Assembly (NCBI GenBank): GCA_963965975.1
Contig: OZ014411.1
Span: forward strand, 19,062,446 to 19,126,445
Origin: Xestospongia bergquistia
Lineage: Eukaryota; Porifera; Demospongiae; Haplosclerida; Petrosiidae
Length of the DNA: 64,000 bases
Direction: 5' to 3'
The position numbers and the translations under genes are program-made. The notes beneath the pieces are model-generated. The model did no database searches, was not told the origin of the DNA, and worked only from the letters and a program-made list of their open reading frames with translations. Positions within the stretch are counted from its first letter, which is position 1, and every line of letters begins with the position of its first letter. Below are positions 7,805 through 52,500 of the stretch, piece by piece.

Positions 7805-7850
7805 CCAAGAAACAGACAGTAAAGAACATAGCTACAAGAGTTAAACTACA

Positions 7851-27300: not shown

Positions 27301-27491
27301 TGGTACGTTCCATATCAAAACAAAAATCAAAAAAAGAAGGAGGCAGGACAATTATGGTCTATTTCACCAAAAATGGTGAAGAGATAGGAGAAACCGAGTG
27401 TACTCTACCCTCTGGAGGTTTTTATCCTGTAGTAGCTATGTTAAGTAGAGGAGAGAGAATCAAAGTAAATTTGCAACCGTTTAGTGGATAA
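24319..27491 (+). CDS. SPRYD3: Double-SPRY protein, SPRYD3-like, copy B
   Basis: Five exons: ATG alone at 24319-24321 (last codon of exon 1), then 24401-24649, 25354-25462, 25715-25855 and 26656-27491. All have GT-AG junctions and phases 0,0,1,1. The product is 445 residues. Domain 1 includes GSANVDPKSSGIKLHYKGRF, PVNPMLNYFEYEILNRGEEC, GWNRDSIGYHADDGKLFHE, GDIMGCGVDF, VFFTKNGRQIG and HGLYPLFG. Domain 2 follows GLHSHGEKI (DISPSTYWLRSNGVKFVDDG, HYFELEILE, GWNAGAVGYHADDGKLFKE, GDVMGCGVRF, VYFTKNGEEIGE, FYPVVAMLSRGERIKVNLQP). The insert in domain 2 is acidic (SSDEDYEDYFGD) with a PPLGLFGG and LPPPPMP tail. Exon sizes 3 and 5 nearly equal those of copy A, so the pair arose by inverted duplication. 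The start choice removes a false signal peptide (see rejected items). Confidence 0.9.
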
Positions 27492-30544: not shown

Positions 30545-31123
30545 CTAAGTTCTTTGGAAAGCATACAGGGACTTCTTGATATCTTCAAGAAATACCTGGT
30601 TCACCTCACTAGGAAATGTACAGTTCCTTAACTGATCTTTCTTCTTCATTTCACACAAATGATATGATATAGCAACTACATCTACTATATTCTGAGTGAT
30701 TTGCACAGTGTCTGGATTACAAGACATCAGTTCCTTTGTTTCAACCAATATCTGCATAATAAAATTAAAGAAATTGTTATCAACAGCTATGGTATAATAA
30801 TACCACCAATACAATAGGATGCTACTTACTTTATATATATCTGACAGTACATGATGTAGTAGCTGTAATACAGGTATACATTGAGGTTTAAAAATACTGC
30901 CATTGTAAACTGTTATGGTACCCAAGTCAATCTTGCTCTCAACAATACTACTCCACTGCTGTTCCCAGTCCTGTATTATCGAAATCAGTTTCTTTGTGGT
31001 ATCTGACATCAACAAGAACATCTTGCTGTTGTTAGTGACATCTTGCAATGATAAGGTAGTAAACTGCTCCAGTAGACTGTTTAAAACAACAGTAATGCTG
31101 TTAAACGTATTGGTGATCTCCAT
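30545..31123 (-). CDS. Array family protein, reverse copy R1
   Basis: Two exons on the minus strand: 30830-31123 (98 codons) and 30545-30751. They are joined by a 78-nt GT-AG intron (30752-30829, phase 0); 166 residues. It starts MEITNTFNSITVVLNSLLEQ, an amphipathic helical region. The family core KIDLGTITVYNGSIFKPQCI follows, then IPVLQLLHHVLSDIYK at the intron. Exon 2 has ILVETKEL, VVAISYHLCEMKKKDQLRNC, TFPSE and DIKKSLYAFQ. There is no signal peptide or membrane segment in the spliced form, so it is probably cytosolic. I recognise no known family. The intron has no stop in frame; retention would insert a hydrophobic segment. Confidence 0.75.
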   Translation of the reverse strand: MEITNTFNSITVVLNSLLEQFTTLSLQDVTNNSKMFLLMSDTTKKLISIIQDWEQQWSSIVESKIDLGTITVYNGSIFKPQCIPVLQLLHHVLSDIYKVSSILLYWWYYYTIAVDNNFFNFIMQILVETKELMSCNPDTVQITQNIVDVVAISYHLCEMKKKDQLRNCTFPSEVNQVFLEDIKKSLYAFQRT

Positions 31124-32130
31124 GACTAAATAACAATTTTAATTCATCACTTGAACAAACAGACTTCTTTTATAACAGAAGTTCATATTACATATCCTGT
31201 AATGTAACATCACACCTGGACCCCTTGGATGTATACATCCTGCATAGTCATGATGTTTGTGTTATATTAATTTATTTAGTTATAATTTTATTATTATTAT
31301 AATACTAAAATAATTGATAAATTAAAGGATAAATCCTTGTTGTCAGAAGGATAGTAGTAATTGCTTTACACCATAAGAGAATGCTTCTAATCAAAACAAT
31401 CATTGCAATAATTGAGGCTGTCACTATAATTGTTTCCTCACTCACAGACAACTTGGGAAGTGTATCATCCTGATCATGAAGGGTAACTAAATTAACATCT
31501 TATCTTTATCCGTAATGTCATGAGTTATGCAACTGTGAAATAACAATTGTTGCAATATCTTGACTTAAAAGAAATTGTGTAGGCACAAACTCTCATCTCT
31601 CATACAGATTTAAACATTAGCCATGCTATTCTATTACTGCAATACATACACCATATGAACTACTACATTATTGTCATAATTATGAGCTTAACTTGTTAAT
31701 GTTCACTGTTAAATAGACTGGTTGATTTAACAAAGTCATGTATTCTTTTATCTACATTAAAATAGCACAAATAACTTCCATAATGAAGTGAGCCAAATAT
31801 ATGATATTGACACATAAAAATAGATTACTTGTGTGAACAAGAGCAGCTAGTACTGTGTGTCTTTAGGATTGCATATTCTGATTAGTTAAGCAAAATGAAT
31901 TTCATGGATACTAGCTAGGGAACATGTGTATACAATGACTAATAAAATAATCAATAGACACTAGCCTATACAAGAGTAGCTGGGATATTGGTACTTAACT
32001 GTAACTAATAGGCACATGGTCAAAATTACCATCTACTCTCAGTATTCCCACATATACCCAAACAAAATTGAAGTTCATATTCAGAGCAATTCAAATGAGA
32101 TGCATCTATAATATAATAATGTGAAACATA
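31124..32130. other. Array spacer, duplicated sequence
   Basis: No gene. The region from about 31590 to 32110 (taaacattagccatgctatt... through agcaattcaaatgagatg) recurs upstream of the other forward copies (33.97, 40.48 and 43.95 kb). It is the common 5' block of the array unit. Confidence 0.55.
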
Positions 32131-32159
32131 CATACATAATCTATTTAATTTAAAAAGGT

Positions 32160-32560
32160 GGGGTTAATGTGTGATGTCAGAGATAACACTGATGTTAGGT
32201 TAACCTATGATGAGGAAAGTCGAGTGTGTCAGTAATTATTATAGTGTTATAAAAGCAACTGGTAGAGTCTACTCTACTATCTATAATACAATAACGTGAG
32301 GTGTACATACGGATGACGTCAATCTATTTAATTAAAAATAAGATGCATACTCAATATAACCTCTATAATATAATAATGTGAAACATACATACAGATGACG
32401 TCAATCTATTTAATTTAAAAAGGTGGGGTGAATGCGTGATGTCAGTGATAACAATCATAACACTGAGCACAGGATGTAAGGTTGACCAGTGATGGGGAAA
32501 GTTGAGTGTGTCAGTAATTATTATAGTGTTATAAAAGCAACTAGTTTATATGTATAGACT
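32160..32560 (+). promoter_or_regulatory. Duplicated promoter module of copy F1
   Basis: Two successive copies of the same module occur, 282 bp apart at the TATA boxes. CRE-like TGACGTCA is found at 32314-32321 and 32396-32403, aaaggtggggt at about 32154 and 32421, and gtgtgtcagtaattattatagtgttataaaagcaact with TATAAAAG at 32248-32255 and 32530-32537. Only the second TATA lies at the usual distance (about 107 nt) from an ATG (32637). Confidence 0.65.
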
Positions 32561-32636
32561 ATTGTCATAAAAAAGCCATTACACGTAAATATCTCTCGAG
32601 TACTGACTGCATTCAAAACTTAATTCAAGAAACAAA

Positions 32637-33202
32637 ATGAGTCTTAGTGAAGTTAAAGATATTGCCAACACTTTAGATAACATTGCTGTACTTCTAAACA
32701 AGATGGAGAAGCAGTTCAATGCCTTAGACTTCAGCAATAACAAGACAACCTCTTTTATTACAGATGCCCTGAGAAGACTCAATAACATGATACTAAACTG
32801 GCAAGAACAATGGAGTGCAGCCATGATTAATAATGTTGACTTAGGCACTGTAACTGTTTATAAAGGCAACATTTTTAAACCACAAAGTATACCAGTAACA
32901 CAATTACTTCACTCTGATGTACATCAAGTAAGCTTTGTAATTTAATTGTTCAGATAAACTTATAATGCTTTCTCTGATTTTAGATTTTGGCTGAAACTGA
33001 AGAAGCCCTACCTGAAAATCTTCATACACAAGTGTTAGAAAAAGTCACCAACATCATCATGATCTCTAGTTACCTCTTTGAAATGAAGAGGAAAGGACAA
33101 CTAAGGCATTGTGTTTTTCCTTGTGACCAAGACAAGGAAACATTAAAAGACATTAACCAGTCATTACTATCATATCAGGGATTACAAATTTATTGTCAAT
33201 AA
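32637..33202 (+). CDS. Array family protein, forward copy F1
   Basis: Exon 1 is 32637-32927 and exon 2 is 32984-33202, with a 56-nt GT-AG intron in phase 0; 169 residues. MSLSEVKDIANTLDNIAVLL then NKMEKQF form an amphipathic N-terminal helix, and ALRRLNNMILNWQEQWSAAM a second. The core is NVDLGTVTVYKGNIFKPQSI with IPVTQLLH. It lacks three residues (VLS) that other copies have before SDVHQ, a 9-nt deletion next to the intron. Exon 2 has ILAETEEALPENLHTQVLEK, SSYLFEMKRKGQLRHCVFPC and DINQSLLSYQ. Probably cytosolic and helical; function unknown. Confidence 0.75.
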
Positions 33203-34638
33203 AATATAACATACTTACATATAATTATACTGTATTACCACATACATTATACATACATAATAATATTATTGTTTTAATTGTTTTTACTGTTCATTTCTTC
33301 ATTATTTTGAAATCAACAATTGCAAGTCCATTTTAAACTATAAAAAAGTGGTGGTATTTATTATAAAACTAAAGGGAAAGGCATGAACATGCATTGTGCA
33401 TGATCATTCATGATCAGACTGGCTTATTCATTACTTATATAGATATATTACGTATCATTCTATCATCTTGTCTCTAGACCCACACACTAACTTGAGTTGA
33501 CTTTTGTGTCCTAGCTAATCAATGTGACATGGATGTTGAAATCTAGGCCAGGAAACTGCTTCTCCATCTTGTTTAGAAGTACAGTGATGTTATCTAAAGT
33601 ATTGGTAATATCTTGAACTTCACTAAGACTCTTTTTTTTCTTGAATCATATTTTTGACTACAGTTAGTATTGCATATATAACTAAACTCTACATCATAAC
33701 ATACTAACTAACTACATTAATCCACTTTCTTCCTATGTTGCATCATAGGTTAACCTAACATCCTGCGCTTCAGTTCCCTCACTCACAGCCACCTCCACCT
33801 TTTTAATTAAATTCATTTGAGCGTAATACATCCTGTAAGCACTCAACACAACTAACGTCTTCCCTTTAATATCTTGCCTTACCCATAATGTCATGAATTA
33901 TGCTACTGTGAAATAACAGCTGTTGCAATATCTTAACTTAAACATAACTGTATAGACACTAGCTTCATCTCTCATACAGTTTTAAACATTAGCCATGCTA
34001 TTCTATTACTGCAATACATACACCATATGAACTACTACATTATTGTCATAATTATGAGCTTAACTTGTTAATGTTCACTGTTAAATAGACTGGTTGCTTT
34101 AACAAAGTCATGTATTCTTTTTATCTACATTGAAATAGCACAAATAACTTCCATAATGAAATGAGCCAAATATACGATATTGAAATCTATAAAAATAGAT
34201 TATGGTTGTGTGAACAAGAGCAGCTAGTTCTGTGTCTTTAGGATTGCATATTCTGATTAGTTAAGCAAAATGAATTTCATGGATACTAGCTAAGAAAGAT
34301 GTTTATACAATGACTAAGAAAATAATCAATAGATCTATACAAGAGTAATATTGATACTTAAAATATAACTATATAGTAGGCATATTGTCAAACTTCCATC
34401 TACTCTAGTATTCCCATATATACATGAACAAAATTAAAGCTGATATTTAGAGCAATTCAAATGAAACTAGACAAATACATACTCAATATAATAATGTAAA
34501 ACATAGTTGATATACTAACAGGATGTAGGTCGCTCTAATAAATTTAATTTAAAAGGTAAGGTCACAAAAGTGCAGGATATTAGGTTTACCTGTGATGAAA
34601 CCACAACGGCAGGAAGTCGAGTAATGTAATTAGTTAGT
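33203..34638. other. Array spacer with exon-1 relic
   Basis: At 33541-33631 (minus strand) a piece of the family's exon 1 is preserved (SLSEVQDITNTLDNITVLLN, then KMEKQFPGLDF). Its start codon has changed from ATG to AAG. The rest is duplicated array spacer, including the 3' flank motif catgcattgtgcatgatcat shared by the forward copies. Confidence 0.65.
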
Positions 34639-34743
34639 GATATTATAAAAGTAACTTGTTTATGGCGTAGAGTTTAGTTAAACTTTTACACGCAAATATC
34701 TCCCGGGTACTGACTGCATTCAAAACTTAATTCAAGAAACAAA

Positions 34744-35317
34744 ATGAGTCTTAGTGAAGTTAAAGATATTACCAAAACTTTAGATAACATTGCTGTACTT
34801 CTAAACAAGATGGAGAAGCAGTTCAATGCCTTAGACTTCAGCAATGACAAGACAACTTCGTTTATTACAGATGCCCTGAGAAGACTCAATAACATGATAC
34901 TAAACTGGCAAGAACAATGGAGTGCAGCCATGATTAATAATGTTGACTTAGGCACTGTAACTGTTTATGAAGGCAACATTTTTAAACCACAAAGTATACC
35001 AGTAACACAATTACTTCACTCTGTATTATCAGATGTGCACCAAGTAAGCTTTATAATTTAATTGTTCAAATAAATTTATAATACTTCTTTGATTTTAGAT
35101 TTTGGCTGAAACTGAAGAAGCCCTACCTGAAAATCTTTATATACAAGTGTTAGAAAAAGTCACCAACGTCATACTGATCTCTACACACCTCCATGAAATG
35201 AAGAGTAAAGGACAACTAAGAGATTGTGTTTTTCCTTGTGACCAAGACAAGGAAACTTTGAAAGACATTAGTCAGTCATTACTATTATATCAAGGATTAC
35301 AAATCAGTTGTCAATGA
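34744..35317 (+). CDS. Array family protein, forward copy F2
   Basis: Exon 1 is 34744-35043 (100 codons) and exon 2 is 35099-35317, with a 55-nt intron in phase 0; 172 residues. Almost identical to F1 and F3, with differences such as DITKTLDN and SNDKTTSF in exon 1 and VILISTHLHEMKSKGQLRDC in exon 2. Exon 2 is nearly the same as in F3, 6.5 kb away, because both lie in a duplicated block of about 3 kb. A TATA box (tattataaaag) lies near 34639. Confidence 0.75.
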
Positions 35318-36379
35318 AATTATAACATACATAAATATATTATATATTTTTATATATGCATTATACATACATGACAATTTTGTTGCTTATATCGTTTGTT
35401 TCTTCATTATTTTAAAGTCAACAAGACCATTCCAAATTATGAAATAGTGGTGGTATTTATTATAAAACTAAAGAGAAAGTCATCAACATGCATTGTGCAT
35501 GATCATTGATTGTCAGTCTCTGACTTGTACATGACCTATATAATTATATTACATGTCATTCTATCATCTCATTCTAGACCTACATGCTAATTTGAGTTAA
35601 CTTTGTGTCCTAGCTAAGAGAAAGTTTTTGGATTGTTTAAAGCAACAGTAACGCATATTAAATCTATATAGTTTGATGATCTTCAAGACAAAAAAGGATT
35701 TTGATTATCATTTGAACAAATAACGTTAACCTAAGTGGTCCTTTATGACAAAAGTTCACATTATATACCCTGTATATGATGTGAACTTTTTTGATCCTTA
35801 TTTATGATGTTTATAGTCTAGCTGAACTCACACATCCTACAATGTCATGATATTATGTATTCTATATGTCTTATATCCTCAGTATTACTTCATTTAGTTA
35901 CACTTTATTATATACTGATAAGAATGATAAAAGATGAATCTTTGTTGTACTGTAGAAGGATGATAATAATTACTTTATACCAAACAAGAATGCTTATAGT
36001 CACTGAATACACTCATTATAATAATTGGCAATAGTCCATATATCAATTGTTTGCTTAGACCACTCAGGAAATATAATTTAAGTATCATCCTGAAGACTAC
36101 TCAACACGATTAATGTCTTACCTTTAGCCATTTATACCTATAATGTCATGAGTTATGCTACTGTGAAATAAGAGCAATTGTGATATCTTCATTTTAAAGA
36201 AGCTGGGTAAATTCTAGCTCTTATCTCTCATACAATTTTAAACATTAGCTATGTGATACTATCACACAATAATTAATAAACTAGACATCATTACTATTAA
36301 AAAAATAATATACAAGGGGATGATAGTGTATACAACAAAATATTTGATTAAACAATACATCCAATTAAATTATAAATTT
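35318..36379. other. Array spacer with conserved hairpin
   Basis: Contains the palindrome gttcacattatata / tatatgatgtgaac at about 35753-35787, conserved at three other places in the array. No gene seen. Confidence 0.5.
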
Positions 36380-36958
36380 CTATGTTCTTTGACAAGCATA
36401 CAGTGACTTCTTGATATCTTCAAGAAATACCTCGTTCATCTCACTAGGAAATGTACAGTTCCTTAACTGATCTTTCTTTTTCATTTCACACAAATGATAT
36501 GATATAGCAACTACATCTACTATATTTTGAGTGATTTGCATAGTGTCTGGATTACAAGATGTCAGTTCCTTTGTTTCAACCAATATCTGCATAATAAAAT
36601 TTAAAAAATTGTTATCAACAGCTATGGTATAATAATACCACCAATACAATAAGATGCTACTTACTTTATATATATCTGACAGTACATGATGTAGCAGCTG
36701 TGATACAGGTATGCATTGAGGTTTAAAAATACTGCCATTGTAAACTGTTATGGTACCCAAGTCAATCTTGCTCTCATCAATGCTACTCCACTGCTGTTCC
36801 CAGTCCTGTATTATCGAAATCAGTTTCTTTGTGGTATCTGACATCAACAAGAATATCTTGCTGCTGTTAGTGACATCTTGCAATGATAAGGTAGTAAACT
36901 GCTCCAGTAGACTGTTTAAAACAACAGTAATGCTGTTAAACGTATTGGTGATCTCCAT
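36380..36958 (-). CDS. Array family protein, reverse copy R2
   Basis: Exon 1 is 36665-36958 and exon 2 is 36380-36586, with a 78-nt intron in phase 0; 166 residues. The start MEITNTFNSI is chosen by homology to R1 and R3. The frame stays open upstream for 43 codons (to 37087), but that part matches untranslated flank in R1 and R3, which have stops there. Core KIDLGTITVYNGSIFKPQCI; exon 2 ILVETKELTSCNPDTMQITQ, then YHLCEMKKKDQLRNCTFPSE. No signal peptide. Unknown function; the same intron-retention possibility as R1. Confidence 0.75.
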   Translation of the reverse strand: MEITNTFNSITVVLNSLLEQFTTLSLQDVTNSSKIFLLMSDTTKKLISIIQDWEQQWSSIDESKIDLGTITVYNGSIFKPQCIPVSQLLHHVLSDIYKVSSILLYWWYYYTIAVDNNFLNFIMQILVETKELTSCNPDTMQITQNIVDVVAISYHLCEMKKKDQLRNCTFPSEMNEVFLEDIKKSLYACQRT

Positions 36959-37428
36959 GACTAAATAACAATTATAATTCATCACTTGAACAAATAGAGT
37001 TTTTTTATAACAGAAGTTCATATTGAATATCCTGTAATGTAACCTCACACTAGACCCCTTCCATGTGTACATCCTGCATTTGTACATGATGTTATATACT
37101 TTATGTGTTATAATTTATTTGAGCGTAATACATCCTGTAAGTACTCAACACAACTAACGTCTTCCCTTTAATATCTTGCCTTACCCATAATGTCATGAAT
37201 TATGCTACTGTGAAATAACAGCTGTTGCAATATCTTAACTTAAACATAACTGTATAGACACTAGCTTTCATCTCTCATACAGTTTTAAACATTAGCCATG
37301 CTATTCCATTACTTCAATACATACATCATATGAACTACTACATTATAATTTTATCGTTTTAATTGTTTTTATTGTTCATATTTTCTATTGTCATAATTAT
37401 GAGCTGATTCAATCAACTTTGATTTTAG

Positions 37429-37659
37429 ATTTTGGCTGAAACTGAAGAAGTCCCACCTGAAAATCTTCATACACTGATACACAAGTGTTAGAAAAAGTTA
37501 CCAACAAACATCATAATGATCTCTATTTACCTCTTTGAAATGAAGAGCAAAAGACAACTAAAGCATTGTGTTTTTCCTTGTGACCAAGACAAGGAAACAT
37601 TAAAAGACATTAACCAGTCATTACTATCATATCAGGGATTACAAATTTATTGTCAATAA
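37429..37659 (+). pseudogene. Array family relic, exon 2 only
   Basis: The acceptor (ttttgattttag) and full exon 2 are recognisable (ILAETEEVPPENLHT... to the end at TAA). Small insertions (tacactgataca and ccaacaaacatc) break the frame, and no exon 1 lies upstream. A decayed forward copy joined to reverse-copy 5' flank. Confidence 0.75.
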
Positions 37660-37957
37660 AATTATAACATACTTACATATTATTATACTGTATTACCACA
37701 TACATTATACATACATAATAATATTATTGTTTTAATTGTTTTTACTGTTCATTTCTTCATCAACAATTGCAAGTCCATTTTAAACTATGTAATAGTGGTG
37801 GTATTTATTATAAAACTAAAGGGAAAGGCATGAACATGCATTGTGCATGATCATTTATTATCAGACTGGCTTATTCATTACTTATATAGTTATATTACGT
37901 ATCATTCTATCATCTTGTCTCTAGACCCACACGCTAACTTGAGTTGACTTTTGTGTC

Positions 37958-38080
37958 CTAGCTAATCAATGTGACATGGATGTTGAAATCTAGGCCAGGA
38001 AACTGCTTCTCCATCTTGTTTAGAAGTACAGTGATGTTATCTAAAGTATTGGTAATATCTTGAACTTCACTAAGACTCAT
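37958..38080 (-). pseudogene. Array family relic, exon 1 start
   Basis: Starts MSLSEVQDITNTLDNITVLL on the minus strand. After about 35 family codons it runs into unrelated sequence and stops (HVTLIS then TAG), giving a 40-codon frame. It is a forward-type exon 1 in inverted orientation. The same truncated form appears at 33.5 kb and in longer form at 39.9-40.1 kb. Confidence 0.7.
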
Positions 38081-38398
38081 TTTTTTCTTGAATCATATTT
38101 TTGACTACAGTTAGTACTTGCATACATAAACTCTACATTATAACAAGTTGTTGTTACTAACTACATTACTCCACTTTCTTCCTATGTTGCACCATAGGTT
38201 AACCTAACATCCTGCGCTTCAGTTAAGATCAAAGCCACCTCCACCTTTTTAATTAAATTCATTTGGTGTAATTACATCCTGTAAGTACACCAGACCAATT
38301 AACGTTTTATCTTATCTTACCCATAATATCATGCATTATGCTACTGTGAAATAACAGCTGTTGCAATATCTTAACTTAAACATAACTGTATAGACACT

Positions 38399-38512
38399 AG
38401 CAAAGGACAACTAAGCAATTGTGTTTTTCCTTGTGACCAAGACAAGGAAACATTAAAAGACATTAACCAGTCATTACTATCATATCAGGGATTACAAATT
38501 TGTTGTCAATGA
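38399..38512 (+). pseudogene. Array family relic, end of exon 2
   Basis: The last 37 codons of exon 2 (SKGQLSNCVFPCDQDKETLK... to TGA) plus the usual 3' flank, joined at 38398 to upstream-type spacer. The rest of the gene is deleted. Confidence 0.75.
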
Positions 38513-39919
38513 AATTATAACATACTTACACATATACTGTATAACCGTGTACAATATACATACATAATAATATTATTGTTTTAATTGTTTTTACTGTTCA
38601 TTTCTTCATTATTTTGAAGTCAACAAGTCCATTTTAAATTATGTAATAGTGGTGGTATTTATTATAAAACTAAAGGGAAAGGCATGAACATGCATTGCAC
38701 ATGATCATTTATTATTAGACTGGCTTATTTTATTACTTATATAATTATATTACATATCATTCTATCATCTTGTCTCTAGACCCACACGCTAACTTGAGTT
38801 GACTTTTGTGTCCTAGCTATAGCTAATCAATGTGACATGGATGTTGAAAGATATTGTGTTTGTCACCATTAGTTGAATTACTGATGAGAAAATAAATCTC
38901 ATGTATACACAATATATATAATTACATTGAGAGTATCATAACTGCTTTTACCCAAAACCACATGCATGCAAGATCACATGTTCAGTCATGCCACAGAGAA
39001 AATATTTGGATTGTTTAAAACAACAGTAAATCTGTTAAATCTATTGGTAATTTTCATGACTAAAAAGGAATTTCTATTTATCACTTGAACAAATAGCACA
39101 AGGGCTCTCTTATGACAAAAGTTCACATTATATACCCTGTTTATAATGTGAACTTCTTTTGATCCTTATGATGTTTATAGTCTAGCTGAACTCAAACATC
39201 CTACAATGTCATGATATCATGTATTCTATAATTATGTGTTATACCCTTGGCCTCAGTATTACTTTATTTATATAATACTGATAAGACTGAATCCTGGTAG
39301 AAGGATGATACTAATTACTTTATGGCGCAGGAATGTACCCCGGAAGTGACGTCACGTTTCATTAGTGAATATTAAATACCTTTGTGAAAAGGTCTATTAA
39401 ATTCAAGTATCATCCTGAAGACTCAACAGAATTAACGTCTTACCTATACTGTGTGAAATAAGCTATGAGCTGATTCAATTAACTTGTTAATATTCACTGT
39501 TATAAATAGAATGGTTGATTTAACAAAGTCATGCATTGTTTTTAGCTATATTGAAACAGCACAAATAACTTCTATAACAAAGTGACCCATACATCTGATA
39601 TTGACGTATGAAAATTGATTAGTTGTGTGAACAAGAGCAGCTAGTTCAGTGTCTTTAGGATTGCATACTACTTCTGATTAGTTAAGCAACATTAATTTGG
39701 GGAACATGTGTATGCAATGACTTAATCAAATAATCAATAGACATTAAACATATATAAGAGAAGCTATGCAATATTGGTACTTAACTGTAACTAGTGGGCA
39801 CATGGTCAAAATTACCACCTACTCTCAGTATTCCCACATATATATATATAGACAAACAAAATAGAAGTTCATATTCAGAGCAATTCAAATAATAGTAAAC
39901 AGATACATACTCAATATAA
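38513..39919. other. Array spacer; hairpin and ETS/CRE site
   Basis: Holds another copy of the gttcacattatata hairpin (about 39120-39154) and the compact sequence ccggaagtgacgtcac at 39340-39355, described under findings. No gene seen. Confidence 0.5.
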
Positions 39920-40141
39920 TTAGAGAATGGTTAAGCCTATATATGGGTGCAAGCTATTCGTAATTATACGAAGAGTTGAGATGTGAGACCTTATTCTCTG
40001 AAGTATAATACTATTATAAATAGAAGATGTTGTCTTGTTATTGCTCAAATCTAGGGCAGGAAAATGGTTCTCTATCTTGTTTAGAAGTACAGTGATGTTA
40101 TCTAAAGTATTGGTAATATCTTGAACTTCACTAAGACTCAT
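39920..40141 (-). pseudogene. Array family relic, truncated exon 1
   Basis: MSLSEVQDITNTLDNITVLL then NKIENHFPALDLSNNKTTSS; after that the frame leaves the family sequence and ends 27 codons later. No core motif and no exon 2 are attached. If expressed it would make a 73-residue peptide containing only the first helix. Confidence 0.65.
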
Positions 40142-41156
40142 TTTTTTCTTGAATCATATTTTTGACTACAGCTAGTACTTGCATACATAAACTCTACATT
40201 ATAACAAGTTGTTGTTACTAACTACATTACTCCACTTTCTTCCTATGTTGCACCATAGGTTAACCTAACATCCTGCGCTTCAGTTAAGATCAAAGCCACC
40301 TCCACCTTTTTAATTAAATTCATTTGGTGTAATTACATCCTGTAAGTACACCAGACCAATTAATTAACGTTTTATCTTATCTTACCCATAATATCATGCA
40401 TTATGCTACTGTGAAATAACAGCTGTTGCAATATCTTAACTTAAACATAACTGTATAGACACTAGCTTCATCTCTCATACAGTTTTAAACATTGGCCATG
40501 CTATTCAATTACTGCAATACATACACCATATGAACTACTATATTATTGTCATAATTATGAGCTTAACTTGTTAATGTTCACTGTTAAATAGACTGGTTGC
40601 TTTAACAAAGTCATGTATTCTTTTTATCTACATTGAGATAGCACAAATAACTTCCATAATGAAGTGAGCCAAATATATAATATAGCATTTTGACACATAA
40701 AAATAGATTAGTTGTGTGAACAAGAGCAGCTAGTTCTGTGTGTCTTTAGGATTGCATATTCTGATTAGTTAAGCAAAATGAATTTCATGGATACTAGCTA
40801 AGGAAGATGTGTATACAATGACTAAGAAAATAATCAATAGACATTAACCTATACAAGAGTAATATTGATACTTAAAATATAACTATATAGTAGGCATATT
40901 GTCAAACTTCCATCTACTCTAGTATTCCCATATATACATAAACAAAATTGAAGCTGATATTTAGAGCAATTCAAATGAAACTAGACAAATACATACTCAA
41001 TATAATAACGTAAAACATAGTTGATATACTAACAGGATGTAGGTCGCTCTAATAAATTTAATTTAAAAGGTAAGGTCACAAAAGTGCAGGATATTAGGTT
41101 TACCTGTGATGAAACCACAACGGCAGGAAGTCGACAAATGTAATTAGTTTTCGTGA
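40142..41156. other. Array spacer, upstream block of F3
   Basis: 40142-40440 repeats 38081-38400, and 40450-41156 repeats 33960-34640, nearly base for base over long stretches. No gene seen. Confidence 0.6.
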
Positions 41157-41259
41157 TATTATAAAAGTAACTTGTTTATGATGTAGAGTTTAGTTAAACC
41201 ATTACACACAAATATCTCTCGAGTACTGACTGTAGTCAAAAGTTGATTCAAAAAACAAA

Positions 41260-41833
41260 ATGAGTCTTAGTGAAGTTAAAGATATTGCCAACACTTTAGA
41301 TAACATTGCTGTACTTCTAAACAAGATGGAGAAGCAGTTCAATGCCTTAGACTTCAGCAATAACAAGACAACCTCTTTTATTTCAGATGCCCTGAAAAGA
41401 CTCAATAACATGATACTAAACTGGCAAGAACAATGGAGTGCAGCCATGATTAATAATGTTGACTTAGGTACTGTAACTGTTTATGAAGGCAACATTTTTA
41501 AACCACAAAATTTACCAGTAACACAATTACTTCACTTTGTATTATCAGATGTACATCAAGTAAGCTTTATAATTTAATTGTTCAAATAAATTTATAATAC
41601 TTCTTTGATTTTAGATTTTGGCTGAAACTGAAGAAACCCTACCTGAAAATCTTTATATACAAGTGTTAGAAAAAGTCACCAACGTCATACTGATCTCTAC
41701 ACACCTCCATGAAATGAAGAGTAAAGGACAACTAAGAGATTATGTTTTTCCTTGTGACCAAGACAAGGAAACTTTGAAAGACATTAGTCAGTCATTACTA
41801 TTATATCAAGGATTACAAATCAGTTGTCAATGA
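41260..41833 (+). CDS. Array family protein, forward copy F3
   Basis: Exon 1 is 41260-41559 and exon 2 is 41615-41833, with a 55-nt intron in phase 0; 172 residues. It differs from F2 mainly by ISDALKRL, NLPVTQLLHF and RDYVFPC, where a Cys codon present in all other forward copies is Tyr. TATA box near 41157. Part of the duplicated block shared with F2. Confidence 0.75.
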
Positions 41834-42905
41834 AATTATAACATACATAAATATATTATATATTTTTATATATGCATTATACATACATGACAATTTTGTT
41901 GCTTATATTGTTTGTTTCTTCATTATTTTAAAGTCAACAAGACCATTCCAAATTATGAAATAGTGGTGGTATTTATTATAAAACTAAAGAGAAAGGCATG
42001 CATCAACATGCATTGTGCATGATCATTGATTGTCAGTCTCTGACTTGTACATGACCTATATAATTATATTACATGTCATTCTATCATCTCATTCTAGACC
42101 TACATGCTAATTTGAGTTGACTTTGTGTCCTAGCTAAGAGAAACTTTTCGGATTGTTTAAAGCAACAGTAACGTATATTAAATCTGTATATATTGATGAT
42201 CTTCATGACTAAAAAAGGATTTTGATTTATCATTTGAAATAATAACGTTAACCTAAGTGGTCCTTTATGACAAAAGTTCACATTATATACCCTGTATATA
42301 GTGTAAACTTTTTTTGATCCTTATTTATGATGTTTATAGTCTAGCTGAACTCACACATCCTACAATGTCATGATATTATGTATTCTATATGTCTTATATC
42401 CTCAGTATTACTTTATTTAGTTACACTTTATTATACTGATAAGACTGATAAAAGATGAATCCTTGTTGTACATAGAAGGATGATAATAATTACTTTATGC
42501 CAAACAAGAATGCTTATAGTCACTGAATACACTCATTATAATAATTGGCAATAGTCCATATATCAATTGTTTGCTTAGACCACTCAGGAAATATAATTTA
42601 AGTATCATCCTGAAGACTACTCAACACGATTAATGTCTTACCTTTAGCCATTTATACCTATAATGTCATGAGTTATGCTACTGTGAAATAAGAGCAATTG
42701 TGATATCTTCATTTTAAAGAAGCTGGGTAAATTCTAGCTCTTATCTCTCATACAATTTTAAACATTAGCTATGTGATACTATCACACAATTAATAAACTA
42801 GACGTCATTATATTTAAAAAAATAACATGCAAGGGGATGATATACAAGTAAGTGTATACAACAAAATATTTGATTAAACAATACATCCAATTAAATTATA
42901 AATTT
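41834..42905. other. Array spacer with conserved hairpin
   Basis: A near-identical copy of 35318-36379, including the gttcacattatata hairpin (about 42276-42310). Here the right arm has changed (gtgtaaact), so pairing is weaker. No gene seen. Confidence 0.55.
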
Positions 42906-43484
42906 CTATGTTCTTTGACAAGCATACAGTGACTTCTTGATATCTTCAAGAAATACCAGGTTCATCTCACTAAGAAATGTACAGTTCCCTAACTGATCTT
43001 TCTTCTTCATTTCACACAAATAATATGATATAGCAACTACATCTGCTATATTTTGAGTGATTTGCACAATGTTTGGATTACAAGATGTCAGTTCCTTTGT
43101 TTCAACCAATATCTGCATAATAAAATTTAAAACATTGGTATCAACAGTTATGGTATAATAATACCACCAATACAATAGGATGCTACTTACTTTATATATA
43201 TCTGACAGTACATGATGTAGCAGCTGTGATACAGGTATGCATTGAGGTTTAAAAATACTGCCATTGTAAACTGTTATGGTACCCAAGTCAATCTTGCTCT
43301 CAAAAATACTACTCCACTGCTGTTCCCAGTCCTGTATTATCGAAATCAGTTTCTTTGTGGTATCTGACATCAACAAGAACATCTTGCTGTTGTCAGTGAC
43401 ATCTTGCAATGATAAGGTAGTGAACTGCTCCAGTAGACTGTTTAAAACAACAGTAATGCTGTTAAAAGTATTGGTGATCTCCAT
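42906..43484 (-). CDS. Array family protein, reverse copy R3
   Basis: Exon 1 is 43191-43484 and exon 2 is 42906-43112, with a 78-nt intron in phase 0; 166 residues. Very close to R1 and R2 (core KIDLGTITVYNGSIFKPQCI). It differs at YYLCEMKKKDQLGNCTFLSE, where the otherwise conserved Arg and Pro of QLRNC-FP are Gly and Leu. Function unknown. Confidence 0.75.
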   Translation of the reverse strand: MEITNTFNSITVVLNSLLEQFTTLSLQDVTDNSKMFLLMSDTTKKLISIIQDWEQQWSSIFESKIDLGTITVYNGSIFKPQCIPVSQLLHHVLSDIYKVSSILLYWWYYYTITVDTNVLNFIMQILVETKELTSCNPNIVQITQNIADVVAISYYLCEMKKKDQLGNCTFLSEMNLVFLEDIKKSLYACQRT

Positions 43485-44559
43485 GACTAAATAACAATTT
43501 TAATTCATCACTTGAACAAATAGAGTTCTTTTATAACAGAAGTTCATATTGAATATCCTGTAATGTAACCTCACAGTGGACCACTTCTATGTGTACATTC
43601 TGCATTGTCATGATGTTATATACTTTATGTGTTATATTACTTTATTTAATTACACTTTATTATTGTAATGATTAGACTGATACAATTAAATGAATGAACT
43701 TTGTTGTAGGAAGGATGGTAATAATTATTTTATGCCATAAATGCTTCTAGTCAATACATTGGGCTAGTCACTTTAATTGTTTCCTCAGACAACTCAGGAA
43801 GTAGTATCACATTAAGACAAACAAAATTAACATCTTTCCTTTATCCATAATGTTATGAATTATGCTATTGTGAAATAACAGCTGTATACGTTGCAATATC
43901 TTAACTTAAACATAACTGTATAGGCACTAGCTTTCATCTCTTATACAGTTTTAGACATTAGCCATGCTATTCAATTACTTCAATACATACATCATACAAA
44001 CAACTACATTATAATTTTATTGTTTTAATTGTTTTTATTTTTCATTTCTAATTGTCATAATTATGAGCTGATTCAGTCAACTTGCATTGTTAAATGGACT
44101 GGTTGCTTAAAAACGTCATGCATTATTTTTAGCTATATTGAAATAGCACAAATAACTTCTATAGCAAAGTGACCCATAGATCTGATATTGATGTGTAAAA
44201 ATTGATTAGTTGTGTGAACAAGAGCAGCTATAGTTCAGTGTCTTTAGGATTGCATACTAATTTATGATCATACCAGTTTAACTTCTGATTAGTTAAACAA
44301 AATGAATTTCATGGATACTAGCTAGGGAACATGACAGCAACATGTGTATACAATGACTAATAAAATAATCAATAGACATTAGCCTATACAAGAGTAGCTG
44401 GGATATTGGTACTTAACTGTAAGTGGTCAAAATTACCATCTACTCTCAGTATTCCCATGTATACACAAACAAAATTGAAGTTCATATTCAGAGCAATTCA
44501 AATGAGATGTATACTCAATATAACCTCTATAATATAATAATGTGAAACATACATACAGA
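43485..44559. other. Array spacer, upstream block of F4
   Basis: No gene. Repeats the common upstream block (taaacattagccatgc... at about 43945 onward). It ends with the CRE-containing promoter module that starts at 44560. Confidence 0.5.
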
Positions 44560-44677
44560 TGACGTCAATCTATTTAATTTAAAAAGGTGGGGTTAATGTG
44601 TGATGTCACTGAGCACAGGATGCTAGGTTAAATGACCCGAACAGGAAAATAGTGTGTTATTAATTACTAGTGTTATA
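44560..44677 (+). promoter_or_regulatory. CRE and TATA promoter module of copy F4
   Basis: TGACGTCA at 44560-44567, then aaaaaggtggggttaatgtg, then gtgttataaaagcag with the TATA box near 44670. Same order and wording as the module in front of F1. Confidence 0.6.
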
Positions 44678-44760
44678 AAAGCAGATGTAGACTATAGTCA
44701 TAAAAAAGCCAAATATCTCTCGAGTACTGACTGTAGTCAAAACTTGATTCAAGAAACAAA

Positions 44761-45338
44761 ATGAGTCTTAGTGAAGTTAAAGATATTGCCAATACTTTAG
44801 ATAACATCACTGTACTTCTAAACGAGATGGAGAAGCAGTTCAATGCCTTAGACTTCAGCAATAACAAGACAACCCCTTCTATTACAGATGCCCTGAAAAG
44901 ACTCAATAACATGATACTAAACTGGCAAAAACAATGGAGTGCAGCCATGATTAATAATGTTGACTTAGGCACTGTAACTGTTTATGAAGGCAACATTTTT
45001 AAACCACAAAGTATACCAGTAACACAATTACTTTACTCTGTATTGTCAGATGTACATCAAGTAAGCTTTGTAATTTAATTGTTCAGATAAGTTTATAATG
45101 CTTTCTCTGATTTTAGATTTTGGCTGAAACTGAAGAAACCCTACCTGAAAATCTTCATACACAAGTGTTAGAAGAAAAAGTCACCAACATCATAATGATC
45201 TCTAGTTACCTCTTTGAAATGAAGAGCAAAGGACAACTAAGCAGTTGTGTTTTTCCTTGTGACCAAGACAAGGAAACATTAAAAGACATTAACCAGTCAT
45301 TACTATCATATCAGGGGTTACAAATTTGTTGTCAATGA
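44761..45338 (+). CDS. Array family protein, forward copy F4
   Basis: Exon 1 is 44761-45060 and exon 2 is 45117-45338, with a 56-nt intron in phase 0; 173 residues. One extra residue in exon 2 (VLEEKVTN, a 3-nt insertion). Variants include LLNEMEKQF and NWQKQWSAAM, each an acid/base swap in the helices. The core DLGTVTVYEGNIFKPQSIPV is unchanged. Confidence 0.75.
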
Positions 45339-46643
45339 AATTATAATATACTTACATATATACTGTATTACCACATACATTATACATACATAATAATATT
45401 ATTGTTTTAATTGTTTTTACTGTTCATTTCTTCATTACTTTGAAATCAACAATTGCAAGTCCATTTTAAATTACAAAATAGTGGTGGTATGAACATGCAT
45501 TGTGCATGATCATTCATTATCAGACTCTGGCTTATTCATTACTTATATAATTATATTACATATCATTCTATCATCTCGTCTCTAAGATCCACACGCTAAC
45601 TTGAATTGACTTTTGTGTCCTAGCTAATCAATGTGACATGGATGTTGAAAGATATTGTGTTTGTCATCATTAGTTGAATTACTGATGAGAAACATATCTC
45701 GTGTATACATATATATATATTGGGAATATCATAACTGCTTTACCCAAAACTACATGCATATGCAAGATCACGTGTAAATATTTGGATTATTTAAAACAAC
45801 AGCAATGCTGTTAAATCTATTGGTAATTTTCATGACTAAAAAGGAATTTTTATTTATCACTTGAACAAATAGCCCAAGGTCTCTCTTATGACAAAAGTTC
45901 ACATTATATACTTTGTATATAATGTAAACTTTTTTGATCCCTATGATGTTTATAATCTAGCTGAACTCACACATCCTACAATGTCATGATATTATGTATT
46001 CTATATGCATTATACCCTCAGTATTACTTTATTTAGTTACACTTTATTATACTGATAAGACTGATAAAAGATGAATCCTTGTTGTAGAAGGATGGTAAAT
46101 TACTTTATACCATAGATAGTGTGCTTCTAGTCAATATACTCATTATAATAATTGGGGTTAGCCTCATATCAATTGTTGCTCAGACTACTCAGGAAATTAG
46201 ATTTAAGTATCATCCTGAAGTCTGAGCAAATTAACTTATTAGTCCTTTCCCATAATGCCATGAGTTATACTACTATGAACAACAATTGATATGATATCTT
46301 AATTTAAAAGATTCAATTAACTTATAATGAAAGTATTAAACACAAAAAATACACAACAGTTACTTTACAGTTTTACTGTGGAATTGATAGTCCATGTAAT
46401 TAGACTAATGACCAATTGATGTGTATTAAAACAGATTGGTTGCATTAACAAGTATAGCTGAATGTTAACAAAACATATACATATTTGCTAAAGTCAGGTT
46501 AGTTAAGGAAACCAATTTCATGGATACATACATAATGACTAATTATTAATAGACATTGGTGGGCCACGCAAGAGTAAATTATCAGTCAATAGCTATAGCT
46601 TGTGGGCATATTGTCAAAATTATTATCTACTCTCAATATTCCC

Positions 46644-46674
<31 letters not shown>

Positions 46675-46930
46675 TATTAACAAACAAACCTGAGTTTCAT
46701 ATTCAGAAGAAAATAGACAAATCCTACAAAAGATCACACTTACTAAAAGGTGCATAAGGGTGAATGTGATGTGACCATGTGTACAGGATGTTAGGCAAGC
46801 AAATTGACCAAATTCTAATGAATATTATTATTATTTAATTAAAAGATGAGACAATCGTAGATGTGACATATGAGGCAATCGTAGATGTGACATTGTGTGG
46901 CAACCATGAATGGGCAGGAAGTTCTGTAAT
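45339..46930. other. Array spacer with hairpin and (TA)n run
   Basis: Contains the conserved hairpin (about 45897-45931) and a (TA)n microsatellite at 46643-46672. No gene seen. From about 46300 on the sequence is less similar to the other spacers. Confidence 0.5.
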
Positions 46931-47048
46931 GTGGTTAATTACTAATGCTATAAAAAAACTAGACAGGTAGAATATTGTTATACAAAGCCATCACACGTAA
47001 ATATCTCTCGAGGACTGACTGTATTCAAAACTTGATTCAAGAAACAAA

Positions 47049-47626
47049 ATGAGTCTTAGTGAAGTTAAAGATATTGCCAGCACTTTAGATAACATTGCTG
47101 TACTTCTAAACAAGATGGAGAAGCAGTTCAATGCCTTAGACTTCAGCAATAACAAGACAACCTCTTCTATTACAGATGCCCTGAGAAGACTCAATAACAT
47201 GATACTAAACTGGCAAGAACAATGGAGTGCAGCCATGATTAATAATGTTGACTTAGGCACTGTAACTGTTTATGAAGGCAGCATTTTTAAACCACAAAGT
47301 ATACCAGTAACACAATTACTTCACTCTGTATTATCAGATGTGCACCAAGTAAGCTTTGTAATTTAGTTGTCAGATAAATTAGGTCATGATTCTTTCTTTA
47401 TCTTTAGATTTTGGCAGAGATTGAAGGGATCCTACCTGAAAATATTCATACAAAAGTGCTTGAAAAAGTCACCAACATCATAATGATCTCTAGTTACCTC
47501 TATGAAATGAAGAATAAAGGACAACTAAGAGATTGTGTTTTTCCTTGTGACCAAGACAAGGAAACATTAAAAGACATTAACCAGTCATTACTATCATATC
47601 AGGGATTACAAATTTGTTGTCAATGA
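47049..47626 (+). CDS. Array family protein, forward copy F5
   Basis: Exon 1 is 47049-47348 and exon 2 is 47408-47626, with a 59-nt intron in phase 0; 172 residues. Exon 1 nearly equals F1. Exon 2 is the most divergent of F1-F5 (ILAEIEGILPENIHTKVLEK, SSYLYEMKNKGQLRDC). TATA-like gctataaaaaa near 46929. Confidence 0.75.
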
Positions 47627-48560
47627 AACAATATGTATTGTATATAGACACACACACACTCAACATTACCATTACATATACATGATAATTTTATTGTTTT
47701 TATTGTTCACTCCTTCATTATTTTGAAGTCAACAAGTCTGTTTCAAACTATGAAATAACACTGGCCGGTGTTTTTTATAAAAATAAATTGTAAAGACATG
47801 TATATGCATTATGCATTACAGGCTCACAAACCAGTCTTTTAAACAAAGAAAGTCAGCTGGAAGACCTGGCTTGCACATTAATGTGTTTATATTGTATTGT
47901 CTTATCCCCAGATCTAGACCTACATACGAAAAATTAAGTCTGGTAACATTAATTGACTTTTGTATCCCAACTAAGAAATGTGACAAAGGTTTCAAAAAGT
48001 ATGAGGAGATACCATGTTATTTTAGTCATTTCATGAGTGTATTCAAAATAAAACAAGAGTTATCTAATCTATTATGTGTGTCATCATTACTTGCAATAAT
48101 GTTGGATAAAGTTTGGTGATGTTGACATTTCTGCTGAGTTTGTATGCAGCAAGAATTACAAAAGACTTTATCTATTTTCTGTGAATATTCTCAGCATGCC
48201 TGCAATCATGTAGTACACACAGGAATATTAAGCATTCTTGTTCTAATAGTAACCTGATCTTTGGATTTGCTACCAAAGTCAGAACAACTAGACTGACAAG
48301 AGTAGTCATTCATTCCAGTACTATAGTAGCTCACACCAAGTTTAATTGTATATATAAAACATTACCAACAAAATGAGTGACATGAACTACTTTTCACTTG
48401 CGTCTATTCACTCTTTATTACTATGTATTGAACAAACAAAATCTCAAAATACGTTTCCTGTTCCAAATTAAAAACTGATAAAATTATAACCATATAATAG
48501 CGTCTACGATAAAAGTGTGAAGTCGTAGCCTAACAAATCAGTGAATCACTAGCCATTACA
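47627..48560. other. Spacer between F5 and F6, no gene
   Basis: Array-type 3' flank to about 47810, then unique AT-rich sequence. An open stretch at 47811-48119 has no features I can support as a gene. Confidence 0.4.
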
Positions 48561-49315
48561 ATGAGCGCTTCAAGAGAATTGACTGAAATTGCTAGCAAAC
48601 TCCAAAGTGTTATAGACACCTTGACTAGCCTCGACACTGCCTTTACTACTACTACTACTGCTGCTGCAATACCTAGCCTAATTGATCGAGATAGGGATGC
48701 TATGAGTGTGATGCCTGAAGCTCTAAAACGCTTCATGGATATAGTTTGCAAATTGGAAAGAGATTTCAAGAGAGTGATTAAAGAGGATATCGATCTCGGT
48801 GCAATAACTACATATGCTGGAAGTGTTTTCAATCCACAAAAAATTCCTGTCGTTCAAGTCTTACATTGCATAATTTCAGACATGGATATGGTGAGTTCTA
48901 ACTGTTTTATACACTCTTCTATCCTGCATGTATATATAAACTAAAGTCTTTTAAATTATACATTAATGATCTTGTGTCAACTAGGAGGGCTATACATACT
49001 TAATGTGATTTGTATTCAACGTATATATCCCAAAATGAAAACTTGTAAATTGACACTTTTTTCTGTTTCATACAGCTACTTACAGATACAAAAACTATTC
49101 TTTGTTCCTCTTCTAATTCTATTGACTACACACAAGCCATCAACAACATATATGCTGTAATCGCCTCATCTCGTTTCATATATCGTACTCAAGAAGCAAA
49201 TGAAGACATTCCAAAAGACAAATTTCCATTTTCAAGCACTGAATCCAATATTGATGATATAACTAGTTTATTCTCAGACTTTGATGATAGAGTTCAAACT
49301 ATTGGTGTGGAATAA
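48561..49315 (+). CDS. Array family protein, divergent copy F6
   Basis: Exon 1 is 48561-48890 (110 codons) and exon 2 is 49076-49315, with a 185-nt GT-AG intron in phase 0 at the same place as in F1-F5 and R1-R3; 189 residues. N-terminus MSASRELTEIASKLQSVIDT, with a Thr/Ala-rich insert (TTTTTAAAIP). Core DIDLGAITTYAGSVFNPQKI with IPVVQVLHCIISDMDM. Exon 2 (LLTDTKTILCSSSNSIDYTQ ... DITSLFSDFDDRVQTIGVE) is only weakly similar but has the same length and helical character. It is likely the oldest member and defines which residues are conserved. Confidence 0.75.
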
Positions 49316-49599: not shown

Positions 49600-52500
49600 A
49601 TGGTGTCTACCCCTGATGAAATAGAATTAAAGAAGCTAGGGTCTAGTCTAGAACGTTAGTTTTAGATGCTGTTATCATAATACTAGTTCATGGTTTACTA
49701 TATGGTTATATAAGGCATGGTATAATACTAACATCCATTGTGAAATTGATGATATAACTACTGTCTAGACAGTTTAATAGTGACCACAAGAGATCAAAGT
49801 GTTGTCACAAGATACACTGCATGATGTCCATACCATAATTTTTATAATGTAATTTTGTGATGCTATTTATGTCTATATTATAGTTTTTAATTTTTACATC
49901 TATTGGTGTTGCTCTACTAGCATTATTCTAATATTGTCTGACATTTGCCTATCCCCCAGAAACATTGGGAAATGCGAGGCTAGTGCTTACCATTCATGTT
50001 AGATTGTACTAACCATTGTACATATTCAGTGATATTTTGTGTGATATTTGTTGTCCACTCACAGAAGATGAAGAAAAGGAACAACTTCTTAGTAAAGAGA
50101 CCAGAAAACAGTCACAGTATGCAACAATATTACAAGAGTCCAATGGACCAGACACATCAACTGACAGTATCAGACAACGTGTATTTAGATGGTTACAAAA
50201 GTACGTCTTCTGTTGTGATTTAGGAGATGAGGATGATGCTATGGATTTACATAAAGTCTATATACATACGGAAGGATGGGCTTTCACCTCTAACAGAATC
50301 AGGTACATTTAACACTTAAGCTAGAGAATAGAACTATATTGAACTACACTATAGCTAATCTCACATATTCTGATCCTAGTTGCTTACATTTTATTAACCA
50401 TAAAAGAAACACAAACTGTTTGTATTTGCTACTATACTATTTACCTTTATAGAGCTTCAGTAGTCCATGTGTATCCAGGGTCGTCACCTACTCATTAGCT
50501 TTATATTGATTGTTTATGTTGATGTGTTGTAGTTTATGACTAACTCTGAGAATACATTAAGTTGACATTCGTTAGCAATGCTCATAATTCAATAACTTTC
50601 TCATATTTATGTATATTACAAAGATAACATGTTACCATGCAAACTTAACATTAATTTACTCCTCATAACATAAGTTGTTTTTAATATGTGTAATTAAATA
50701 TGCCCTGCAATACACATTCCAAACAAATTGAGTGTACAATCTAGTTGTTAGCAAACACATTTTTTTACTCATTACAAACATATAGCACAATAGCTAAGTT
50801 TATAACAAGGAATAGTTATGTTATTAGTTACAGTAAGAGTAGTTATATGAAACATTTTGCTTGGACATTCATTGACTTGTTTGGCAGTGATTCAAGTACT
50901 ATAGAATACAAAAAACTTTGAAACTGAAGATATTTTTACTACATAATATGTTTATGTTGTTATAATTAGTAAATACAAATGTTATTTTAGCAGTTACTGA
51001 TACTATGGCTTGTTTCTTGTTTCACTGTAGTACAACCAAATATAATGTCATCACTTTTGTGCCAAAATTCTTGTTTGATCAATTCCGACGTTATTCTAAT
51101 CTGTTCTTCTTAATCATGGCTTTGCTAGAGGTACATACACTACATTAGTATCAGTAATCCTTCACTAGTGGTACATACACTACAATATCAGTAATCCTTC
51201 ACTAGAGGTACATACACTACAATAGTATCAGTAATCCTTCACTAGTGGTACATACACTACAATAGTATCAGTAATCCTTCACTAGAGGTACATACACTAC
51301 AATAGTATCAGTAATCCTTCACTAGAGGTACATACACTACAATAGTATCAGTAATCCTTCACTAGATGTACATACACTACATTAGTATCAGTAATTCTTT
51401 CACTAGAAGTACATACACTACATTAGCATCAGTAATCCTCCACTAGAGGTACAGACACTACATTAGTATTAGTAATCCTCCACTATAGGTACATACAGTA
51501 TCAGTAATCCTTAACTAGAGGTAGATACACTACATTAGTATCAGTAATCCTTAACTAGAAGTACATACACTACATTATTCCTTATTAACTAGTGGTACAT
51601 ACACTACATTAGTATCAGTAGTCCTTCACTTAAGGTACATATAAATTTAACTTAGTTACCTTTATATATCCAAGTACTTGTATTAGAAGACATGCTGTCT
51701 AGAGTTGTGACTACTGATAACATATAACAGCAAGTTTTGAAGTCATCTAAGTCAATAGGTGGCTATATTCTTGTAATCCCTTAACAGAATTTGTATGAAC
51801 TCTTAACTTGTCCTACTACTGTGTAATACAGTAGTTATATGTGTGAACAACAGTCTCACAAACAATTAATAAGGTGCATCTATCTCATTTTTAGCAAATT
51901 CCAGGTGTGTCTCCCTTTGACACCTACACAATAGCTTTTCCTTTGTCAATAGTTATTGTTGTGGCTGCCATTAAAGAGATTATTGAGGATCTAGTTAGTA
52001 TATCCTCTATGTTATTTATTTTGTATTCATTATAATTATAATTAACAGAGACGATTTAAAGCTGATAAGGAAGTCAACAACAGAATAGTTGAAGGTATAC
52101 AAAAGTATCATGCAGTCACACTCCAGACAGACACAGAAATGACATAGTGTCGGCTCCCATTATGATAATTGTTATTATAAGGTATTCTTTTTTATAGTTT
52201 TAAGGCAAGATAGACATGTAGATGAGATCAGATGGAAACAGGTACATAGGTCATTGTGATATCAGTTAATAAGCACTTGCTAGGTCAAACCTGGAGATAT
52301 AGTTAGAATTACAAAGGACATGTACTTCCCTGCTGATCTCATATTCCTCTCTTCCAGGTAAGATACTGTAATAGGAGAGTGTGTACAGTTATAATCACAT
52401 TTACATTTTGTACTATGATTATTAATTACAGTGAGTTATTTGGAAAGTGTTACATTCAAACTGCTAGTCTTGATGGAGAGAGCAACTTAAAGATTAGACA

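Follow-up and report, generated by a model that had tools for sequence, protein, structure and literature searches.

A two-array family of small two-exon genes in the sponge Xestospongia bergquistia with a segment constant in one array and variable in part of the other

The genome assembly of the demosponge Xestospongia bergquistia (GCA_963965975.1) contains on contig OZ014411.1 a stretch of 64,000 nucleotides (positions 19,062,446 to 19,126,445 of the forward strand; hereafter the window) that harbors between positions 30545 and 49315 an array of nine small two-exon genes, array 1, with six members on the plus strand (F1-F6) and three on the minus strand (R1-R3; Table 1). An initial annotation, made from the letters alone, had described the nine genes, their common intron position, a common core motif, products of 166-189 residues and at least five relics, all of which is borne out here. 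Each of the nine genes possesses an intact frame and a single phase-0 intron at the same place with GT-AG borders, and the introns measure 55-59 nt in the genes F1-F5 and 78 nt in R1-R3, F6 having a longer one of 185 nt. The core DLGxxTxYxGxxFxPQ is recovered by translation and regular expression from all nine frames, six on the plus and three on the minus strand. Exon 1 of F4 is 89-92% identical to that of F1, F2, F3 and F5 and 44-47% identical to that of the R genes, and the likeness among the array-1 genes is far beyond chance. The relics amount to seven pieces, three of them ends of F-type first exons, two of them short and weak ends of R-type first exons, and the remaining two broken second exons.

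Table 1. Genes and relics of array 1 in window coordinates; the start position is the first coordinate for genes on the plus strand and the second for genes on the minus strand.
Feature	Position	Strand	Product (aa)	Intron (nt)	Remarks
R1	30545..31123	-	166	78	two exons; intron in frame, stop-free
F1	32637..33202	+	169	56	two exons; R1 is divergent partner (1.5 kb ATG to ATG)
Relic, F-type exon 1 5' end	33535..33621	-			E 1e-10
F2	34744..35317	+	172	55	two exons
R2	36380..36958	-	166	78	two exons
Relic, exon 2 with stop, without exon 1	37429..37635	+			occupies slot of the F partner of R2
Relic, F-type exon 1 5' end	37985..38080	-			E 3e-13
Relic, broken exon 2	38351..38488	+			
Relic, R-type exon 1 5' end	39010..39057	-			weak, E 0.07
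Relic, F-type exon 1 5' half	39980..40141	-			E 5e-16
F3	41260..41833	+	172		two exons; inside the 3.6-kb copy 40047-43636
R3	42906..43484	-	166	78	two exons
F4	44761..45338	+	173		two exons; R3 is divergent partner (1.3 kb ATG to ATG)
Relic, R-type exon 1 5' end	45786..45833	-			weak, E 0.01
F5	47049..47626	+	172		two exons
F6	48561..49315	+	189	185	two exons; joins array 1 (by the core in exon 1) to array 2 (by exon 2)

Array 1 has grown by tandem and segmental duplication accompanied by decay, in line with the rapid local duplication proposed at the outset. The block 33539-37112, comprising a relic, F2 and R2, has a second copy at 40047-43636 (3613 aligned positions, 94.6% identical), in the divergent pairs R1/F1 and R3/F4 the similarity spans most of the intergenic space, and the F partner of R2 is reduced to its exon 2. 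Within F1-F5 the first exon is held far more alike than introns and flanks, the pooled divergence rising from 3.6% for exon 1 through 9.0% for exon 2 and 13.6% for the intron to 21.6% for the 3' flank (185 bases); F5 is 96-98% identical to F1-F4 in exon 1 and differs from them by 23-32% in intron and 3' flank. The synonymous change in F1-F5 is 0.063 in exon 1 versus 0.139 in exon 2. Since synonymous change is ordered like total divergence, we infer that gene conversion would account for part of the exon 1 likeness better than protein-level selection does.

The introns of the three R genes (30752-30829, 36587-36664 and 43113-43190, minus strand) are multiples of three in length and free of stops in all cases, and an unspliced R message would yield an aromatic-rich insert of 26 residues. 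This may reflect one event that was then copied three times, or possibly chance. In the gaps of the two divergent pairs (31124-32636 and 43485-44760) a TATAAAA stretch is located about 50 (R) to about 110 (F) bases 5' of the ATG.

A search of the whole assembly (146.5 Mb, 21 contigs), in which the best 20-odd candidates per query were scored, so that more distant copies may be missed, yields credible matches of the F4 and R2 queries in the window of array 1 only (matches down to E 0.01, with one elsewhere at E 5.4). The F6 query in addition matches ten exon-2 places on the same contig (contig 1, C1) at 25.03-25.07 Mb with E 2e-6 to 1e-3. Closer inspection of 70 kb at this site, 5.9 Mb away from array 1, reveals nine further two-exon genes, array 2, with B, C, D, E and J on the plus strand and G, H, I and K on the minus strand, as well as an orphan exon 2 (A) and one relic near 25061305. 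The description as a nine-gene family thus applies to the window and falls short as a statement of family size. With C and I, which represent the two branches of array 2, and the most diverged gene K as genome queries a third locus was not found among the best candidates scored, the next match being at E 0.8.

The exon border agrees in all 18 genes of both arrays, in gene I as judged from similarity, and in the 17 genes with GT-AG borders the phase-0 intron lies directly before a [VIL]L-x-[DE]-[TI] stretch. Alignment of the profile of F1-F5 and R1-R3 to array 2 gives an hhalign score of 36.7 over 119 columns, the best of 150 column shuffles scoring 20.2, and F6 aligned to the array 2 profile scores 110.3 (best shuffle 19.6). 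F6 had been regarded as divergent in every part except the core; this does not hold for its second exon, which matches array 2 at 30-41% identity, with E down to 1e-10 when the 70-kb stretch alone is searched. In a tree of the genes F1-F5, R1-R3, B-E and G-K each form one group, array 2 being split into the latter two, and F6 is found on a long branch beside the F and R groups. The tree is midpoint-rooted with a root for drawing only, and we can therefore no more than infer an ancestor-like position of F6. These comparisons establish common descent of both arrays, which constitute one family of at least 18 two-exon genes, with F6 as the link between them.

The ratio of nonsynonymous to synonymous substitution (dN/dS, omega) in a codon model, with p values from a chi-square distribution with one degree of freedom on small data, is 0.42 for all 18 genes (p 2e-25), 0.45 for F plus R (p 9e-6), 0.48 for B-E (p 7e-4) and 0.69 for G-J (p 0.03). 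Counting replacement (pN) and synonymous (pS) change per site gives pN/pS values for exons 1 and 2 of 0.48 and 0.55 in F1-F5 and of 0.32 and 0.61 in R1-R3, and pooled values of 0.47 for B-E and 0.69 for G-K. These ratios show long-term purifying selection on a family that has encoded protein over a long period; its most recent copies are too similar to each other for a verdict on selection. A ratio near 1, by which, together with a lack of transcripts, the initial annotation would have recognised a set of decaying duplicates, is found neither for the family as a whole nor for F plus R, and is possible for the F copies (F1-F5 alone, 0.68, p 0.16) and the R copies (R1-R3 alone, 0.70, p 0.4).

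The core is present in 9/9 genes of array 1 and in 0/9 genes of array 2 in the alignment, B-E retaining a PQ-x-x-[VI]P trace in its place. The alignment between the arrays is unsure at the core, and the comparison concerns the stretch between the same flanking landmarks. It had been assumed that the core marks the residues under constraint. As array 2 is devoid of DLGxxTxYxG, the core instead marks a subfamily and not a family-wide constraint, and in G, H, I and J the codon model assigns the weakest constraint to the equivalent segment, where replacement sites also vary more than anywhere else in the protein. In these four genes (K is much more diverged and was omitted from the segment tests) replacement change per site is 0.38 in columns 65-94 versus 0.14 elsewhere, at a synonymous change of 0.19 versus 0.22. 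The codon model yields omega 0.99 for columns 63-92 and 0.57 for the rest, where omega 1 is rejected (twice the log-likelihood difference, 2 delta lnL, 8.1), with columns 31-60 as low as 0.12 (2 delta lnL 10.2). A 30-codon window with an equally large pN minus pS, located anywhere, occurs in 22 of 5000 column shuffles of G-J. In B-E the highest ratio (1.35, columns 81-100) likewise falls inside the core-equivalent region. Positive selection on the G-J segment, as suggested by a pairwise pN/pS of 2.05 in columns 65-94, gave way to the omega of 0.99 in the codon model; the segment is either unconstrained or mixed, and diversifying selection is not demonstrated.

The initial annotation could not place the products in any family, and the database searches agree. 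No credible family is found in Pfam for the 18 different proteins (nine in one scan and 14, nine of them new, in another), nor for 14 of the 18 members in NCBIfam (best E 0.006, 16.3 bits vs a cut-off of 125) or PHROGs (best E 0.0033, in one of the 14). Profile searches give 0 and 4 matches to PDB sequences, none credible (best E 0.08). In viral and prokaryote contigs, scanned with both array alignments by means of two short seed peptide patterns each and with animals outside the scan, a relative was not confirmed, and lineage specificity is for this reason not claimable from these scans. Below threshold, the V-SNARE N-terminus (PF05008) is matched by 4/9 and 2/14 members in the two Pfam scans (best E 0.017 and 0.032), with 13.8 bits for F1 and 15.1 bits for F5 vs a cut-off of 25.9. 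HRI2_3H (PF22949) is without clear match in most members (3/9 and 2/14, best E 0.0057), and an RPW8 or HeLo-like bundle is not supported by Pfam RPW8, which reaches 11.5 bits in F5 vs a cut-off of 30.4 and any match at all in 1/9 and 1/14 members. The 18 proteins are also without Pfam match to NACHT, LRR, CARD or death domain. The available parts of published work on sponge families, immunity and allorecognition contain no description of this family that we could find, which is no proof of its being unpublished.

Hydropathy of all 18 proteins displays neither a membrane span nor a hydrophobic start (highest 19-residue mean 1.57), which supports the earlier statement on the missing signal peptide; supported as well is that on helix-rich products, which are mostly helix in two low-confidence AlphaFold models. 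The first model was calculated for a contiguous reading of R2 including the 26 in-frame intron codons, with 15 rows, the F1-F6 exons being entered separately, and has a mean predicted local distance difference test score (pLDDT) of 51.4 and a predicted template modelling score (pTM) of 0.40; the second, calculated for exon 1 of F6 with nine rows of first exons, has a mean pLDDT of 49.9 and a pTM of 0.30. Both poor models depict a long helix 1, a helix 2, an irregular stretch bearing the core, and a helix 3. The R2 model adds a few isolated strand residues in the core stretch and three further helices, the intron residues being part of the third and fourth helices, and a Foldseek search with this poor model gave no match below E 1.1. 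The protein is probably mostly helical, with the core predicted in the linker between helices 2 and 3.

In the 500 bp upstream of the 18 genes, compared with simple base shuffles, heat-shock, kB, IRF, AP1 and metal-response sites are absent or without excess, and counts versus expectation, given without significance test, are 46 vs 32 for TATA-like, 14 vs 8.4 for STAT-like and 4 vs 2.3 for ARE sites. Within 120 bases 5' of the ATG, inspection by eye (array 2 at C1:25030656-25069875, L046-L050) finds ACAGGAAGT in B, D and E and TTTCCTGT in G, H and I as well as in F6; C is devoid of the motif. It is the complement of ACAGGAAA, which we take to be reminiscent of an ETS site.

The reading that we prefer, at slightly less than even odds (about 0.45), is that the two arrays on one contig encode soluble, mostly helical binding proteins with a conserved scaffold and one segment carrying specificity. 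The conserved helices would form the scaffold, and the stretch that connects helix 2 to helix 3, judging by variation alone, would carry the binding specificity; array 1 has this stretch fixed as DLGxxTxYxGxxFxPQ, and in one branch of array 2 it varies freely. On this view the gene products would be cytosolic adaptors or binding proteins, with array 1 supplying the animal with a number of nearly identical versions and array 2 with a number of distinct ones. For such a repertoire our guess would be a role in defence or in self/non-self distinction as the most plausible use; defence, allorecognition and stress are possible uses that are not separated by the present results. A long shot by comparison is the wider proposal that an early-branching animal possesses a cytosolic recognition family of a new kind, with one exchangeable segment mounted on a conserved scaffold of helices; selection and gene conversion would keep the segment constant in array 1, array 2 would have diversified, and the arrays would serve as a constant and a variable set.

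Several observations weigh against the preferred reading. Plain loss of constraint would fit the G-J segment as well as a specificity segment does; the segment was picked after the window profile had been viewed, and in sets of independent pairs pN exceeds pS there with p 0.18, 0.15 and 0.03, thus without significance in two of three. The one-segment idea leaves unexplained the pN/pS of 3.5 in columns 1-20 of G-J, on little synonymous change, and the loosest stretch of F1-F5, which lies in exon 2 (columns 111-150, pN/pS 1.1-1.8). The omega values of F1-F5 alone and of R1-R3 alone are not significantly below 1. Gene I (C1:25064249-25064995, minus strand), whose exon 2 frame is still open, as after a recent loss or with an alternative acceptor, carries TG and not AG at the expected acceptor, which is a sign of decay in array 2. 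Given the low confidence of the models (mean pLDDT 51 and 50), the helical bundle and the location assigned to the core are both weakly founded.

The seven relic pieces among nine genes, the 3.6-kb segmental copy and the indecisive omega values of the F and R copies would also be expected if array 1 were the by-product of an unstable region, shaped by unequal exchange, homogenisation by gene conversion and decay, in which a household job falls to only one or two of the copies, perhaps F6 and one of the F genes; the lower synonymous change in exon 1 than in exon 2 of F1-F5 is as conversion tracts give. We consider this unlikely, albeit deserving of serious attention, for frames and splice sites are intact in 9/9 genes of array 1, and the omega values of F plus R and of B-E point to copies constrained over longer times. 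The helical scaffold might instead belong to a highly diverged member of a known helical family beyond the reach of profiles, such as a SNARE-type N-terminal bundle, a TNFAIP8-like protein or a cell-death helical domain, to which the sub-threshold matches of HRI2_3H (E 0.006) and the V-SNARE N-terminus (E 0.017) would lend some color. The matches vary from member to member, however, the V-SNARE scores of F1 and F5 remain well short of the cut-off, and neither the PDB profile searches nor Foldseek with its poor model return a credible relative, which makes such an origin rather improbable. Near-identical F copies suit a need for quantity, and collagen-like genes, one with a Pfam Collagen match, are located in the same window, as might be anticipated for a structural or reproductive family (e.g. 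serving spicules, spongin or gametes) that expanded to raise dosage; a matrix protein, to be secreted, would require a hydrophobic start, which these proteins do not have, and we give this explanation very little credence.

Provided that the family exists at the protein level, it adds a domain that is not in the libraries searched. It further offers a ready comparison between nine genes that keep the segment constant and four relatives in which it varies, and this points to where a binding partner might be sought. The family itself is unnamed in these libraries; the tandem growth of an orphan family is a known kind of event, and among invertebrates it is common for an unassigned family to expand in this way.

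The surroundings of both arrays contain further features. The window carries three similar collagen-like open reading frames (ORFs; 3498-4115, 7845-8753 and 10016-10675), presumably of a short-chain collagen type, of which 7845-8753, the sole one scanned, matches Pfam Collagen. A BED zinc finger ORF followed by hAT-transposase-like sequence, the latter recognised by eye, occupies 12704-14235, and two SPRY-domain ORFs of like plan are found at 20766-21770 (minus strand) and 26646-27491 (plus strand), with smaller SPRY-like ORFs between them (by eye). A tandem repeat with a 40-base unit in 13.3 copies extends from 51125 to 51641. The ORF 63223-63483 carries GDGANDV, which we take to be the P-type ATPase motif, in agreement with the flippase gene noted there before; for this exon alone Pfam gives no match at E 0.01. 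Array 2 is adjoined by a 997-residue open frame with regular cysteine-rich repeats (L051:361-3354, minus strand). An NLR gene beside array 2 was considered and rejected, in that the candidate ORF L045:6287-7744 (minus strand, 485 residues), by eye NLR-like after the NACHT part, has no Pfam match at E 0.01, and the sole Walker-A pattern of the 70-kb stretch is found among stops on the opposite strand.

Among known systems, the NLR repertoires of Poriferans, which are sponge defence genes, are expanded as well, with some near-identical copies close together, as far as the available part of the source describes them (PMC12909245). Unlike these, the two-array family is devoid of NACHT, LRR, CARD or death-domain matches. 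The products of the SpTransformer genes of the sea urchin are secreted, and in this they differ from the proteins of the two-array family, in which hydropathy reveals no signal-like start. Like the present genes, the SpTransformer genes form a small family grown by duplication; according to the parts of the sources at hand, they are unique to one animal group and are upregulated on immune challenge (PMC8634487, PMC11810900). Tandem-expanded, taxonomically restricted (orphan) families of corals and other invertebrates, as portrayed in the available portions of two reports (PMC10236652, PMC12314368), share with the genes described here the lack of a recognised domain, local duplication, mixed orientation and relics. 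In contrast to those families, the present one has two arrays joined by a single gene, F6, and a segment that stays fixed across array 1 and varies freely in some genes of array 2.

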